A stretch of DNA of 36,371 bases, taken from contig SVLV01000003.1 of the NCBI GenBank assembly GCA_015067765.1, forward strand, positions 1-36,371, given 5' to 3'. Within the stretch, counting starts at the first letter, position 1; the number at the start of each line of letters is the position of its first letter. The DNA is from Oscillospiraceae bacterium (GTDB taxonomy: Bacteria > Bacillota > Clostridia > Oscillospirales > Oscillospiraceae). Below the pieces are notes generated by a model that saw only the letters and a program-made list of their open reading frames with translations, ran no database searches and was not told the origin of the DNA. The translations under genes were made by a program, and so were the position numbers. Shown here piece after piece: positions 687-3,727 of this stretch.

Positions 687-698
687 CTGTCTTGACAG
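687..698. promoter_or_regulatory. Candidate NiaR operator at the pncA-like promoter
   Basis: CTGTCTTGACAG is a perfect palindrome with a TT centre. It overlaps the -35 element (692-697) of the nicotinamidase-like gene. The inner ten bases TGTCTTGACA recur at 2434-2443 in the large palindrome over the EIIC-like transporter promoter, next to niaR. Assignment to NiaR is inferred from this sharing and the gene context. Confidence 0.6.
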
Positions 699-720
699 GG
701 AGCGGGGGATTGGACATAAT
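692..720 (+). promoter_or_regulatory. Promoter of the pncA-like gene
   Basis: TTGACA (692-697), 17-bp spacer, CATAAT (715-720). The gene starts at 742, so the leader is very short. The -35 is embedded in the palindrome at 687-698, which suits simple repression. Confidence 0.75.
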
Positions 721-741
721 AGGAAAAAAGGAGGTGGCAGG

Positions 742-1269
742 ATGAAAAAGATTCTGATTGCCGTGGATCTGCAGAAGGACTTTGTGGACGGCGCGCTGGG
801 CACTGCGGAGGCAGTGGCCATGCTGCCCCGGGCCGCACGGAAACTGCAGGACCATGAGGGACCGCTCTTTGTGACGCTGGACACCCATCAGCAGGACTAT
901 CTGCAGACCCGGGAGGGCAAGTTTCTGCCGGTGGAACACTGCGTCCGCGGCAGCGCCGGCTGGCAGCTGCACCCGGTGATCGCCGGGGCCCTGGAAGGAA
1001 AGGCCTACCGGGTGGTGGAAAAGCCCACCTTCGGCTCGGTGGAATTGCCCAAACTGGTCCGGGAGGCGGCGGGTGATGAGGCATTCACTGTGGAACTGCT
1101 GGGCCTGTGCACCGACATCTGCGTGGTGTCCAATGCGCTGCTGCTGAAGGCCCACTTTCCAGAGGCGGACATCTCGGTGGACGGCAGCTGCTGCGCCGGC
1201 GTAACACCGGAGAGCCACCGGGCGGCGCTGGAGACCATGAAGATGTGCCAGATCACCGTAACAGAATAA
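742..1269 (+). CDS. pncA: Nicotinamidase-like cysteine hydrolase (isochorismatase fold)
   Basis: A 175-residue isochorismatase-fold hydrolase whose motifs fit nicotinamidase, which converts nicotinamide to nicotinate plus ammonia in NAD salvage. The likely catalytic triad is Asp9 (AVDLQKDF), Lys94 (VVEKPTFGS) and Cys127 (GLCTDICV). Likely metal ligands are Asp47 and His49 (LDTHQ) and His66 (EHCVRGSAGWQLHP). The EHCV-G-GW pattern is typical of nicotinamidases rather than isochorismatases. The start follows GGAGGTGGCAGG. Its promoter carries a palindrome shared with the transporter promoter beside niaR, which supports a NAD role. It is slightly shorter than usual family members. Another amidohydrolase specificity remains possible. 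Confidence 0.78.
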   Translation: MKKILIAVDLQKDFVDGALGTAEAVAMLPRAARKLQDHEGPLFVTLDTHQQDYLQTREGKFLPVEHCVRGSAGWQLHPVIAGALEGKAYRVVEKPTFGSVELPKLVREAAGDEAFTVELLGLCTDICVVSNALLLKAHFPEADISVDGSCCAGVTPESHRAALETMKMCQITVTE

Positions 1270-1272
1270 GAG

Positions 1273-1312
1273 AAAAAGCATCGGAACTGCAGTGCGGTTC
1301 CGATGCTTTTTT
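1273..1312. terminator. Bidirectional terminator between convergent pncA-like and EIIC-like genes
   Basis: AAAAAGCATCGGAAC (1273-1287) pairs with GTTCCGATGCTTTTT (1297-1311), flanked by A- and T-runs, so it can terminate both the pncA-like gene and the transporter gene ending at 1320. Confidence 0.9.
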
Positions 1313-1319
1313 GATATAC

Positions 1320-2399
1320 TTACAGGTCCAGTTTCAGATCGCCGTCCTTGATCCAGCCCCACTTGCGCAGGGGGATGGCAATGAGCCAGGTGAGGAGAGC
1401 GGGCAGCACCACACAGATCAGCGCCAGGCCGATCCAGTCCATAGCGGTAGGAGTGATAGCAGTAGCGCCTACCATCTCCACAGCCTTCTCGCTGGGAGCC
1501 ATCCAGCCGGTCCATACACCGAGAGGACCACACAGACCACAGGTGCCCATGCCGGAGTTGATGGCATCACCGTTCATCTGCAGGCGGAACAGGCAGGTGG
1601 CGATGGGGCCGGTGATGGCAGAGGCCAGCGTGGGCGGGATCCACACCCGGGGATTGCGGACGATGTTGCCCATCTGCAGCATACTGGTGCCCAGACCCTG
1701 AGAGACCAGGCCGTTCCAGCGATTTTCCTTGAAACTCATGACGGCGAAGCCCACCATCTGTGCACAGCAACCGGCCACGGCGGCGCCGCCGGCCAGACCC
1801 ACCAGGCCGAAGGAGGCGCAGATGGCAGCCGAGGAGATGGGCAGCGTCAGGGCGATGCCCACCAGTACGGAGACGGCGATACCCATCCAGAAGGGCTGCA
1901 GCTGGGTGGTGGTGTTGATGAGGGTGCCGAAGGCATGGGCCGCCGTGCCCACAGGGGGCGCGATCACATAGGACAGGCACACACCGGCGAAGATGGTGAC
2001 AAAGGGGGTCACCAGAATGTCCACCTTGGTCTCCTTGCTGATGGCCTTGCCGATCTCAGCGGCCAGAATGGCCACAAAGAACACGGCCAGCGGTCCGCCG
2101 CTGCCGCCCATGGCATTGGCGGCCTGACCCACAGCGGCCAGAGAGAACAGCACCAGAGGAGGCGCCTGCAGAGCGGAGCCAATGGCGACGGCCATGGCCG
2201 GGGCGGACATGGCGCTGGCATAGCCGCCCATCTCCACCATGAAGGGGAGGCCAAACTGCTGGCCCAGTGTCTTGATGATGGTGCCGATCAGCAGGGAACA
2301 GAACAGGCCCTGCGCCATGGCACTCATGGCATCGATAAAGTAACGTTTGGCGGAGAAGATAATGTTCTTCCGCTGCAGGAATACACGAACCTTTTCCAT
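1320..2399 (-). CDS. Stand-alone PTS EIIC-type membrane transporter, candidate niacin-type importer
   Basis: A 359-residue, strongly hydrophobic protein of the EIIC_2 type (PF13303-like by recognition), with about ten membrane segments and Gly/Ala-rich stretches such as GGSGGPLAVFF. No EIIA or EIIB domain, phospho-Cys motif or PTS partner gene is present nearby, so sugar phosphotransfer is not supported. The start is placed at the ATG at 2399 (MEKVRVFLQRKN): GAGGT precedes it by 7 nt, and in-frame upstream codons would run into the promoter palindrome. It has its own consensus promoter with a long palindrome sharing its core with the pncA-like promoter, and niaR lies immediately upstream. Transport of nicotinate, nicotinamide or a related vitamer is therefore an inference from context. 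Confidence 0.8.
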   Translation of the reverse strand: MEKVRVFLQRKNIIFSAKRYFIDAMSAMAQGLFCSLLIGTIIKTLGQQFGLPFMVEMGGYASAMSAPAMAVAIGSALQAPPLVLFSLAAVGQAANAMGGSGGPLAVFFVAILAAEIGKAISKETKVDILVTPFVTIFAGVCLSYVIAPPVGTAAHAFGTLINTTTQLQPFWMGIAVSVLVGIALTLPISSAAICASFGLVGLAGGAAVAGCCAQMVGFAVMSFKENRWNGLVSQGLGTSMLQMGNIVRNPRVWIPPTLASAITGPIATCLFRLQMNGDAINSGMGTCGLCGPLGVWTGWMAPSEKAVEMVGATAITPTAMDWIGLALICVVLPALLTWLIAIPLRKWGWIKDGDLKLDL

Positions 2400-2419
2400 A
2401 GAATACCTCGCAGAAATCG

Positions 2420-2457
2420 ATAGGGTGGACATGTGTCTTGACACCTGTCCACCCTAT
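2420..2457. promoter_or_regulatory. 38-bp near-perfect palindrome, candidate NiaR operator
   Basis: Arms ATAGGGTGGACA (2420-2431) and TGTCCACCCTAT (2446-2457) surround an inner GTGTC-TT-GACAC (2433-2444). Folded as one palindrome, only one pair in the 18-bp arms fails. It starts at the -10 element and covers the likely transcription start of the transporter gene, a classic repressor position. The inner TGTCTTGACA is identical to the pncA-like operator. Confidence 0.7.
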
Positions 2458-3010: not shown

Positions 3011-3727
3011 TTACATTTTGGAATGGCGGTCCTTGTGCCGCTGGTGAAACCGGCATACCAGACGATAGAACAGCATGCCCGCCAGAGAAAGAACCAGTAC
3101 GATCACAAACGTGAGGATGGCGAACTTATAATTGGCCAGGCCCAGGGCATTACCGCCGATAACAGAGGAAACTACGGCAGGAATTCGGCCCACAGAAGAA
3201 AGCAGCAGCCATTTGCCCCAGGATATGTCGGTCAGGCCAGCAAAATAGCATAACAGATCCTTGGGCGTGCCGGGGATAATAAAGATCAGCCAGAACAACA
3301 AATCCCGCCGGGGAGAGTTTTGGAGGAAGCGAAGATTTTGGAGCTTTTCCAGAGGAAAAAAGATCTCCACCAAAGGCTGACCGAAACGGCGCACCACCGC
3401 AAAAACAAGGATACTGCCCAAAAACAAACCCAGCAGGCAAAGGAAGGAACCCTCCCAGATGCCAAAAGCATAGCCGCCGCTGATCTCAATGGGTTCGCCG
3501 GGGATGACGGCGATGACCACCTGTATCACACACATGCCGATGTATGCAAGCTTGCCTCCAATTCCATGCCGATCGATCCAAAGACGCATCTGCTCCGGGT
3601 CGCTGGCAAACTGCAGCATGGGCCGGCCAATAAACCAACAAAAGACGGCCACAAGCAGCAGGAAGAGGATTATACCGCAAATGGCGATCCGTTTTTTCTG
3701 TTTTGCTGTAAAACGATGTTCGCTCAT
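3011..3727 (-). CDS. TVP38/TMEM64 (VTT-domain) membrane protein
   Basis: A 238-residue integral membrane protein of the TVP38/TMEM64, DedA-related family. After a basic N-terminus (EHRFTAKQKKR) comes a membrane helix. The VTT hallmark segments follow: VIPGEPIEISGGYAFG around residues 75-90 and IPGTPKDLLCYFAG around 152-165, with further helices to the C-terminus. Relatives are implicated in lipid scrambling or envelope homeostasis; no specific substrate can be read here. The start is the ATG at 3727, preceded by GAGAGGTAGT; upstream in-frame codons would run through the promoter region. A weak promoter (TAGAAT, 17 bp, TATACT) lies at 3755-3783. niaR follows within 12 nt. Confidence 0.88.
   Translation of the reverse strand: MSEHRFTAKQKKRIAICGIILFLLLVAVFCWFIGRPMLQFASDPEQMRLWIDRHGIGGKLAYIGMCVIQVVIAVIPGEPIEISGGYAFGIWEGSFLCLLGLFLGSILVFAVVRRFGQPLVEIFFPLEKLQNLRFLQNSPRRDLLFWLIFIIPGTPKDLLCYFAGLTDISWGKWLLLSSVGRIPAVVSSVIGGNALGLANYKFAILTFVIVLVLSLAGMLFYRLVCRFHQRHKDRHSKM

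Follow-up and report, generated by a model that had tools for sequence, protein, structure and literature searches.

A predicted NiaR operator within a longer covarying palindrome upstream of an EIIC-like gene in an Oscillospiraceae genome

Known NiaR regulons and the layout of the locus

The NiaR (YrxA) regulon and its type I operator, TGT-N4-ACA, are already known from the Bacillus/Clostridium group and from Fusobacteria. In B. halodurans, the DNA used for NiaR gel shifts contains ATGTCTTGACAT (PMC7713382, in excerpt), and in S. pneumoniae promoter mutations have been used to test the operator TACWRGTGTMTWKACASYTRWAW (PMC5343564, in excerpt). The locus considered here shares with these systems a 3H-domain repressor, an identical operator core, and a set of targets made up of pncB, probably pncA, and a predicted transporter. 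It differs from them in the transporter, which is of the PF13303 (PTS_EIIC_2) EIIC type, and in the operator, which is lengthened by covarying outer arms. These arms, reaching beyond the NiaR consensus and often followed by a T tract on one side only, are what is new here.

Two other transporters, NiaX (an ECF S-component) and NiaP, hold the same place in the regulon as the EIIC-like protein, which differs from both in being a PF13303 protein. A predicted nicotinate-regulated transporter of B. halodurans may belong to the same family as this protein. NiaY is likewise a NiaR-regulated membrane protein in Firmicutes, cited (PMC5343564, in excerpt) as predicted to transport niacin in five genomes from the Bacilli and Clostridia, and the PF13303 importer may be this published NiaY. 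Literature searches linking PF13303, COG3641, PfoR, or PTS EIIC with niacin, for niacin transporters in these bacteria, and for operators overlapping terminators found nothing on the present case and nothing that pointed to the covarying arms, with subscription papers mostly outside their reach.

The window, meaning the whole 36,371-nt stretch that was analyzed, is the start of a 100.7-kb contig (C48) in a genome of 1.54 Mb that is 79% complete. The five closest named loci, as judged by the EIIC-like protein, are in Oscillospiraceae metagenome bins, at 85–87% identity. A gene of the isochorismatase family, encoding a 175-aa probable nicotinamidase (742–1269, + strand; pncA-like below), is followed by the convergent gene for the EIIC-like membrane protein (2399–1320, − strand; 359 aa), a predicted niacin importer. 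Beyond the second of two candidate sites lies niaR (2998–2492, − strand; 168 aa), encoding a predicted niacin-responsive repressor, directly upstream of the EIIC-like gene and in the same direction. The original prediction had niaR between the two sites; that position belongs to the EIIC-like gene, with niaR just upstream of it. The EIIC-like ORF is listed from a GTG at 2444; the ATG at 2399 is the more likely start, since it has GAGGT in front of it. Where the pncA-like and EIIC-like genes converge, a 19-nt inverted repeat (1273–1311; 95% complementary), ending in runs of A and T, is probably a two-way terminator. The neighboring genes, one VanZ-like (131–622, − strand) before the pncA-like gene and one for a VTT-domain membrane protein (3011–3727, − strand) before niaR, have no NAD link that could be seen. 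In a search in which nadA stood for de novo synthesis, none was found in the genome, an absence that is not sure because the genome is 79% complete; the host is probably unable to make vitamin B3 from scratch.

NiaR and its predicted sites

The niaR product has an N-terminal HTH_11 domain (5.2e-15) and a C-terminal 3H domain (6.3e-33), both above cut-off. Its best solved relatives are NiaR chains (9ebr, 9.7e-38; 7cv0, 8.7e-33), and its three PDB matches are T. maritima NiaR (1j5y, and 9ebr, whose source was read from its near identity to 1j5y) and B. halodurans NiaR (7cv0). The metal and niacin residues H74, E82, H141, and H143, aligned to the T. maritima chain, have the same spacing as H83, E91, H150, and H152 of the B. 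halodurans protein. The ten-base core of the window sites is the core found in the B. halodurans gel-shift DNA (PMC7713382, in excerpt), and the window operator fits that of S. pneumoniae (PMC5343564, in excerpt). With the co-occurrence of site and niaR in relatives (below), these features make NiaR a well supported candidate for the factor acting at the window operator, in agreement with the original prediction.

There are two exact copies of TGTCTTGACA in the window, at 688–697 and 2434–2443, so that the ten core bases are the same at both sites, as had been proposed; shuffled windows contain 0.05 copies on average, and two copies were found in none of 100 shuffles. The first candidate site, CTGTCTTGACAG (687–698, + strand), overlaps the −35 box of the pncA-like gene, whose promoter reads TTGACA (692–697), a 17-nt spacer, and CATAAT (715–720). 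The second, GTGTCTTGACAC, is the center of a 38-bp inverted repeat (2420–2457, assigned to neither strand) with arms at 2420–2437 and 2440–2457 that are 94% complementary and 2 nt apart; its middle is the predicted 22-bp NiaR type I operator GACAGGTGTCAAGACACATGTC (2428–2449, − strand). The repeat overlaps by two bases the −10 box (TATAAT, 2461–2456) of the predicted EIIC-like promoter (2456–2483, − strand), whose TTGACA, 16 nt, and TATAAT match the consensus at 12 of 12 positions. Both placements, over the −35 of one gene and at the −10 of the other, are as originally described. Against the 22-mer consensus the EIIC-like site scores 17/20, a site before pncB 15/20, and the pncA-like site 9/20; the TGT-N4-ACA palindrome is present at all three, at the promoters of NAD genes. 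No site was found before niaR in the window (best score 11/20, equal to the reversed control), so that niaR is not supported as a member of its own regulon. The compact regulon of the original prediction is thus supported in the case of the transporter, less strongly so in that of the pncA-like gene, and falls short for niaR as a regulated member.

The genome-wide scan proposed with that prediction gave four copies of the exact core. Simple arithmetic predicts about three for a 10-mer in a 1.54-Mb genome read on both strands, so it is their position that carries information and not their number. Three of the four precede NAD-salvage genes, which is not the pattern of a motif lying before many unrelated genes. 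The third copy, on another contig and like the outer palindrome arms absent from the original prediction, lies ahead of the pncB frame, some 60 bp from its first start codon; the protein scores 706 bits against an NCBIfam nicotinate phosphoribosyltransferase cut-off of 469. The fourth (G000:C19:3548–3557, L116) does not precede such a gene; its neighbors are an MFS gene on one side and, on the other, a lipoprotein-like ORF with no Pfam match. It scores 9/20 on the 22-mer and is probably there by chance. With one mismatch allowed there were 49 places, as against 76 for the reversed control, so that this count is uninformative, and the follow-up was confined to the four exact places.

Upstream regions of EIIC-like genes were compared in a family sample of 120 genomes, in which PF13303 was found in 76 and the 3H domain in 54; six of the 76 EIIC loci were unscorable at contig ends, leaving 70. 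A site was called at 14/20 to the 22-mer, or at 12 with TGTC..GACA, a rule set after the scores were seen; in the reversed control 14 was reached in 1 of 132 and nothing scored higher. By this rule 36 of the 70 regions carry a site, and all 36, the window included, are in niaR-positive genomes, while 29 of the 34 siteless genes are in genomes without niaR and five are in niaR-positive ones. Under the 14-of-20 rule alone, the four site/niaR cells are 33, 0, 8, and 29. The p value for co-occurrence (7e-15) is, like the others given here, a guide only, since genomes and loci are related. Among 80 loci with organism names, a set sharing some genomes with the 120, 50 are sited; niaR was found upstream in 31, every one of them sited, and 19 sited loci have no niaR within the 3 kb upstream that were examined. 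The gene order pncB-niaR-EIIC is found in 11 genomes. Cultured relatives such as Pseudoflavonifractor phocaeensis (L260) and Oscillibacter sp. ER4 (L274) share the order of the window locus. NiaR control of the EIIC-like transporter is strongly supported by these comparisons. Across the phylum, outside the family (64 PF13303 loci, L123–L186, of which 58 were scored), just one reached 14/20, and the link to NiaR is therefore not general for PF13303. Second PF13303 copies in G064 and G078 had no BLAST match.

A few loci are arranged differently. In G054, G002, and G037 (L386, L387, and L388), niaR and a site are followed by a different membrane protein of ~190 aa in the EIIC-like position. One of the three matches PF12822 (ECF S-component), below cut-off; this protein appears to replace the EIIC-like importer in the same place and is in one case weakly like an ECF S-component. 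In G007 (L402), niaR is followed by a site (14/20) and an isochorismatase-family gene. In G043:C29, G044:C17, and G026:C3, niaR is directly before nadA and in the same direction, with no site by the rule in the two stretches scanned (L389, L394).

The transporter and the salvage genes as targets

The EIIC-like protein matches PF13303 with 298.6 bits (cut-off 28.9; 6.7e-89), the sole domain found; PF12822, which would have pointed to a NiaX-type ECF S-component, was not detected, and PDB sequence searches with the protein and with its alignment gave no useful match. It has an EIIC fold, with 10–14% identity to the PTS glucose/maltose EIIC permeases (PtsG, MalT, ChbC). Its distribution follows that of salvage: pncB is found in 69 of the 76 genomes with the EIIC-like gene and in 16 of the 44 without, and nadA in 3 of 76 as against 23 of 44 (two weak pncB matches, in G018 and G104, and two weak pncA-like matches were left out of these association counts). 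Because EIIC-like genes accompany pncB and avoid nadA, niacin import is the most likely role of this EIIC-fold protein, which probably works without the PTS. Leaving aside any role in termination, NiaR control of a niacin importer is considered likely.

The pncA-like protein matches PF00857 (81.8 bits, cut-off 27; 8.4e-23), and its best solved relative is a Pyrococcus pyrazinamidase/nicotinamidase (6.6e-10). It scores 24.7 bits against the 174 of the NCBIfam equivalog NF008623 (PncA), and is for that reason called pncA-like only. Relatives are found directly before pncB in 13 of 42 genomes. In promoters of pncB (30 examined, from 87 genomes with a match), sites are present at 5 of 15 niaR-positive loci and at 0 of 15 niaR-negative ones. 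For pncA-like genes, 30 of 42 promoters were examined, plus 13 pncA-pncB pairs, three of them already among the 30; sites are present at 4 of 8 niaR-positive pairs and at 0 of 5 niaR-negative ones, and the core precedes close pncA-like relatives at 2 of 30 loci, the window included. No association was found between the pncA-like and EIIC-like genes (27 of 76 vs. 13 of 44, p 0.55).

Each of these two assignments has an alternative. At the pncA-like gene, TTGACA serves both as −35 box and as half of the operator, which makes this the weaker site, and NiaR may control the transporter and pncB only, the match here being a chance one. As TTGACA is needed for the −35 in any case, only the TGTC before it would have to be explained; the score of 9/20 is no better than that of the fourth copy on C19, and the rarity of the core among pncA-like loci also fits chance. 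However, a TGTC ahead of a given −35 box is expected only about once in 256 by arithmetic, the gene is two from niaR, pncA-pncB promoters have sites in niaR-positive genomes and not in niaR-negative ones, and some Firmicutes are known to have pncA under NiaR (PMC5343564, in excerpt). A chance match is thus held to be somewhat unlikely, and NiaR probably acts at this −35. For the EIIC-like protein, the family name and fold are those expected of a PTS sugar permease, which, like some other transporter, might have come under NiaR by chance. The host genome has a PTS enzyme I, and enzyme I is commoner where the EIIC-like gene is present (26 of 76 genomes vs. 6 of 44, p 0.018). It is nevertheless missing above cut-off in 50 of the 76, including 23 of the 45 that are at least 95% complete, a difference from the PTS permeases that, together with the strong association with pncB, the avoidance of nadA, and the pncB-niaR-EIIC gene order, makes a sugar permease or another transporter distinctly improbable. 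In the family sample as a whole, enzyme I exceeds its cut-off in only 32 of 120 genomes; most of the weaker matches are confined to a single C-terminal stretch of ORFs of ~880 aa, the pattern that pyruvate phosphate dikinase would presumably give.

Outer arms of the palindrome

Beyond the operator, the arms of the 38-bp palindrome are not explained by NiaR recognition. In 81 distinct sited regions, Watson-Crick pairs are present at 64–80% for positions 12–17 from the dyad and at 54–59% for positions 18–20; pairs 12–20 fall outside the 22-bp consensus by which the sites were chosen. When the regions were reduced to 66 distinct outer arms, mean pairing over pairs 12–20 was 66.8%, compared with 36.6% when 3′ arms were swapped among sequences (sd 1.9; highest of 2000, 43.1%) and 25–31% when the arms were slid. 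In alignment A3, covariation was counted on the five outer pairs free of gaps, because the aligner had gapped the outer 5′ arm; it was 0.757, compared with 0.226 for shuffled arms, none of 500 shuffles reaching the observed value, and with no more than 0.203 for slid ones, so that pairing is kept while the sequence changes. Changes at positions in the operator flanks, too, are matched between the two sides. Nine sites before pncB, pncA-like, or isochorismatase genes have at most three of nine outer pairs; the numbers for the three sites at small-membrane-protein genes are 4, 7, and 5. Two further comparisons were dropped: one of inverted repeats at sited and siteless loci, since the siteless group held duplicates of sited loci, and one of upstream-gene direction by longest ORF, in which the niaR side of the window came out as antisense.

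The arrangement of these arms suggests that promoter, operator, and terminator are combined in one element. In 66 of the 81 sited regions the first base of the −10 box is about 24 nt ahead of the dyad; a start would therefore be expected near −12 and, if this start is right, the 5′ outer arm would be outside the transporter's own transcript. In the 44 regions with at least seven of nine outer pairs, mean predicted hairpin energy is −26.5 kcal/mol for RNA read through from upstream and −11.7 for RNA from −12. These regions are T-rich at +23 to +32 (4.2 per 10, vs. 2.4 in 26 regions with at most four outer pairs, p 3e-4), with no enrichment upstream of the palindrome or further on. Right after the stem, at least five T in eight are found in 28 of the 44 and in 1 of the 26, in which the stem ends elsewhere. 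Where niaR is directly upstream, its distance to the dyad is 50–80 nt at 30 of 40 loci, which leaves little room for another terminator, and the palindrome is accordingly proposed to end the niaR transcript. Full arms are slightly commoner at such loci (26 of 40) than at those without niaR directly upstream (18 of 41, p 0.08). In the window itself the stem is followed by a weak T tract, with 4 T in 9, and a scan of the window for consensus terminators does not list the palindrome, which is tentatively seen as a hairpin that acts as terminator or insulator. That niaR transcription stops there, with the transporter's own transcript left unaffected, is put forward as a tentative reading, possible rather than probable.

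Other explanations of the arms were weighed against this one. They could serve the 5′ end of the transporter mRNA as a protective or regulatory hairpin, transcription starting earlier than assumed here; the window hairpin is strong (−25.9 kcal/mol, z −3.5) and just before the ribosome site, and where niaR is not directly upstream 18 of 41 sited loci still have the arms. This is judged unlikely, as the usual −10 position, with a start 6–8 nt behind it, leaves the 5′ arm untranscribed and a hairpin in such a role would not be expected to be followed by a T tract. Template switching perfects imperfect palindromes through copying errors, and could have kept the arms complementary without any function, as the joint changes within the operator flanks might suggest; that the nine pncB, pncA-like, or isochorismatase sites have so few outer pairs, and that a one-sided T tract goes with the arms, makes this improbable. 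The symmetry of the arms around the operator would also fit a larger NiaR assembly touching them, which is very unlikely given that their pairing is conserved and their sequence is not, and that other NiaR sites are without them.

The farthest-reaching reading, in which one palindrome of ~40 bp combines the start region of a promoter, a NiaR operator, and the intrinsic terminator of niaR, and the gene behind it encodes a PTS-free niacin importer of EIIC fold, is given a probability of roughly 0.35. The NiaR control of a niacin importer, considered likely, does not depend on it: in this bacterium, whose genome yielded no nadA, vitamin B3 salvage would come under a small NiaR regulon. Nicotinate-loaded NiaR, seated on the type I operator that covers the EIIC-like start region, would turn the niacin importer off, and would act also before pncB; the −35 of the pncA-like gene is a further probable target. 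In the wider reading, the outer arms would lengthen the operator into a hairpin that is complete only in RNA read through from niaR, since the transporter's own RNA is expected to begin behind the 5′ outer arm, which itself follows the −10 box; niaR transcripts would stop at the palindrome and the transporter's own transcript would pass.

In the gut genome set of PMC6593275 (in excerpt), known B3 transporters are present in only 25% of B3 auxotrophs. The EIIC-like protein offers a testable candidate for the niacin importer where de novo NAD synthesis seems to be missing, as in many gut Oscillospiraceae and in some Lachnospiraceae. The flanks of its repressor site, held by base pairing and not by sequence, point to a second job for the same DNA.
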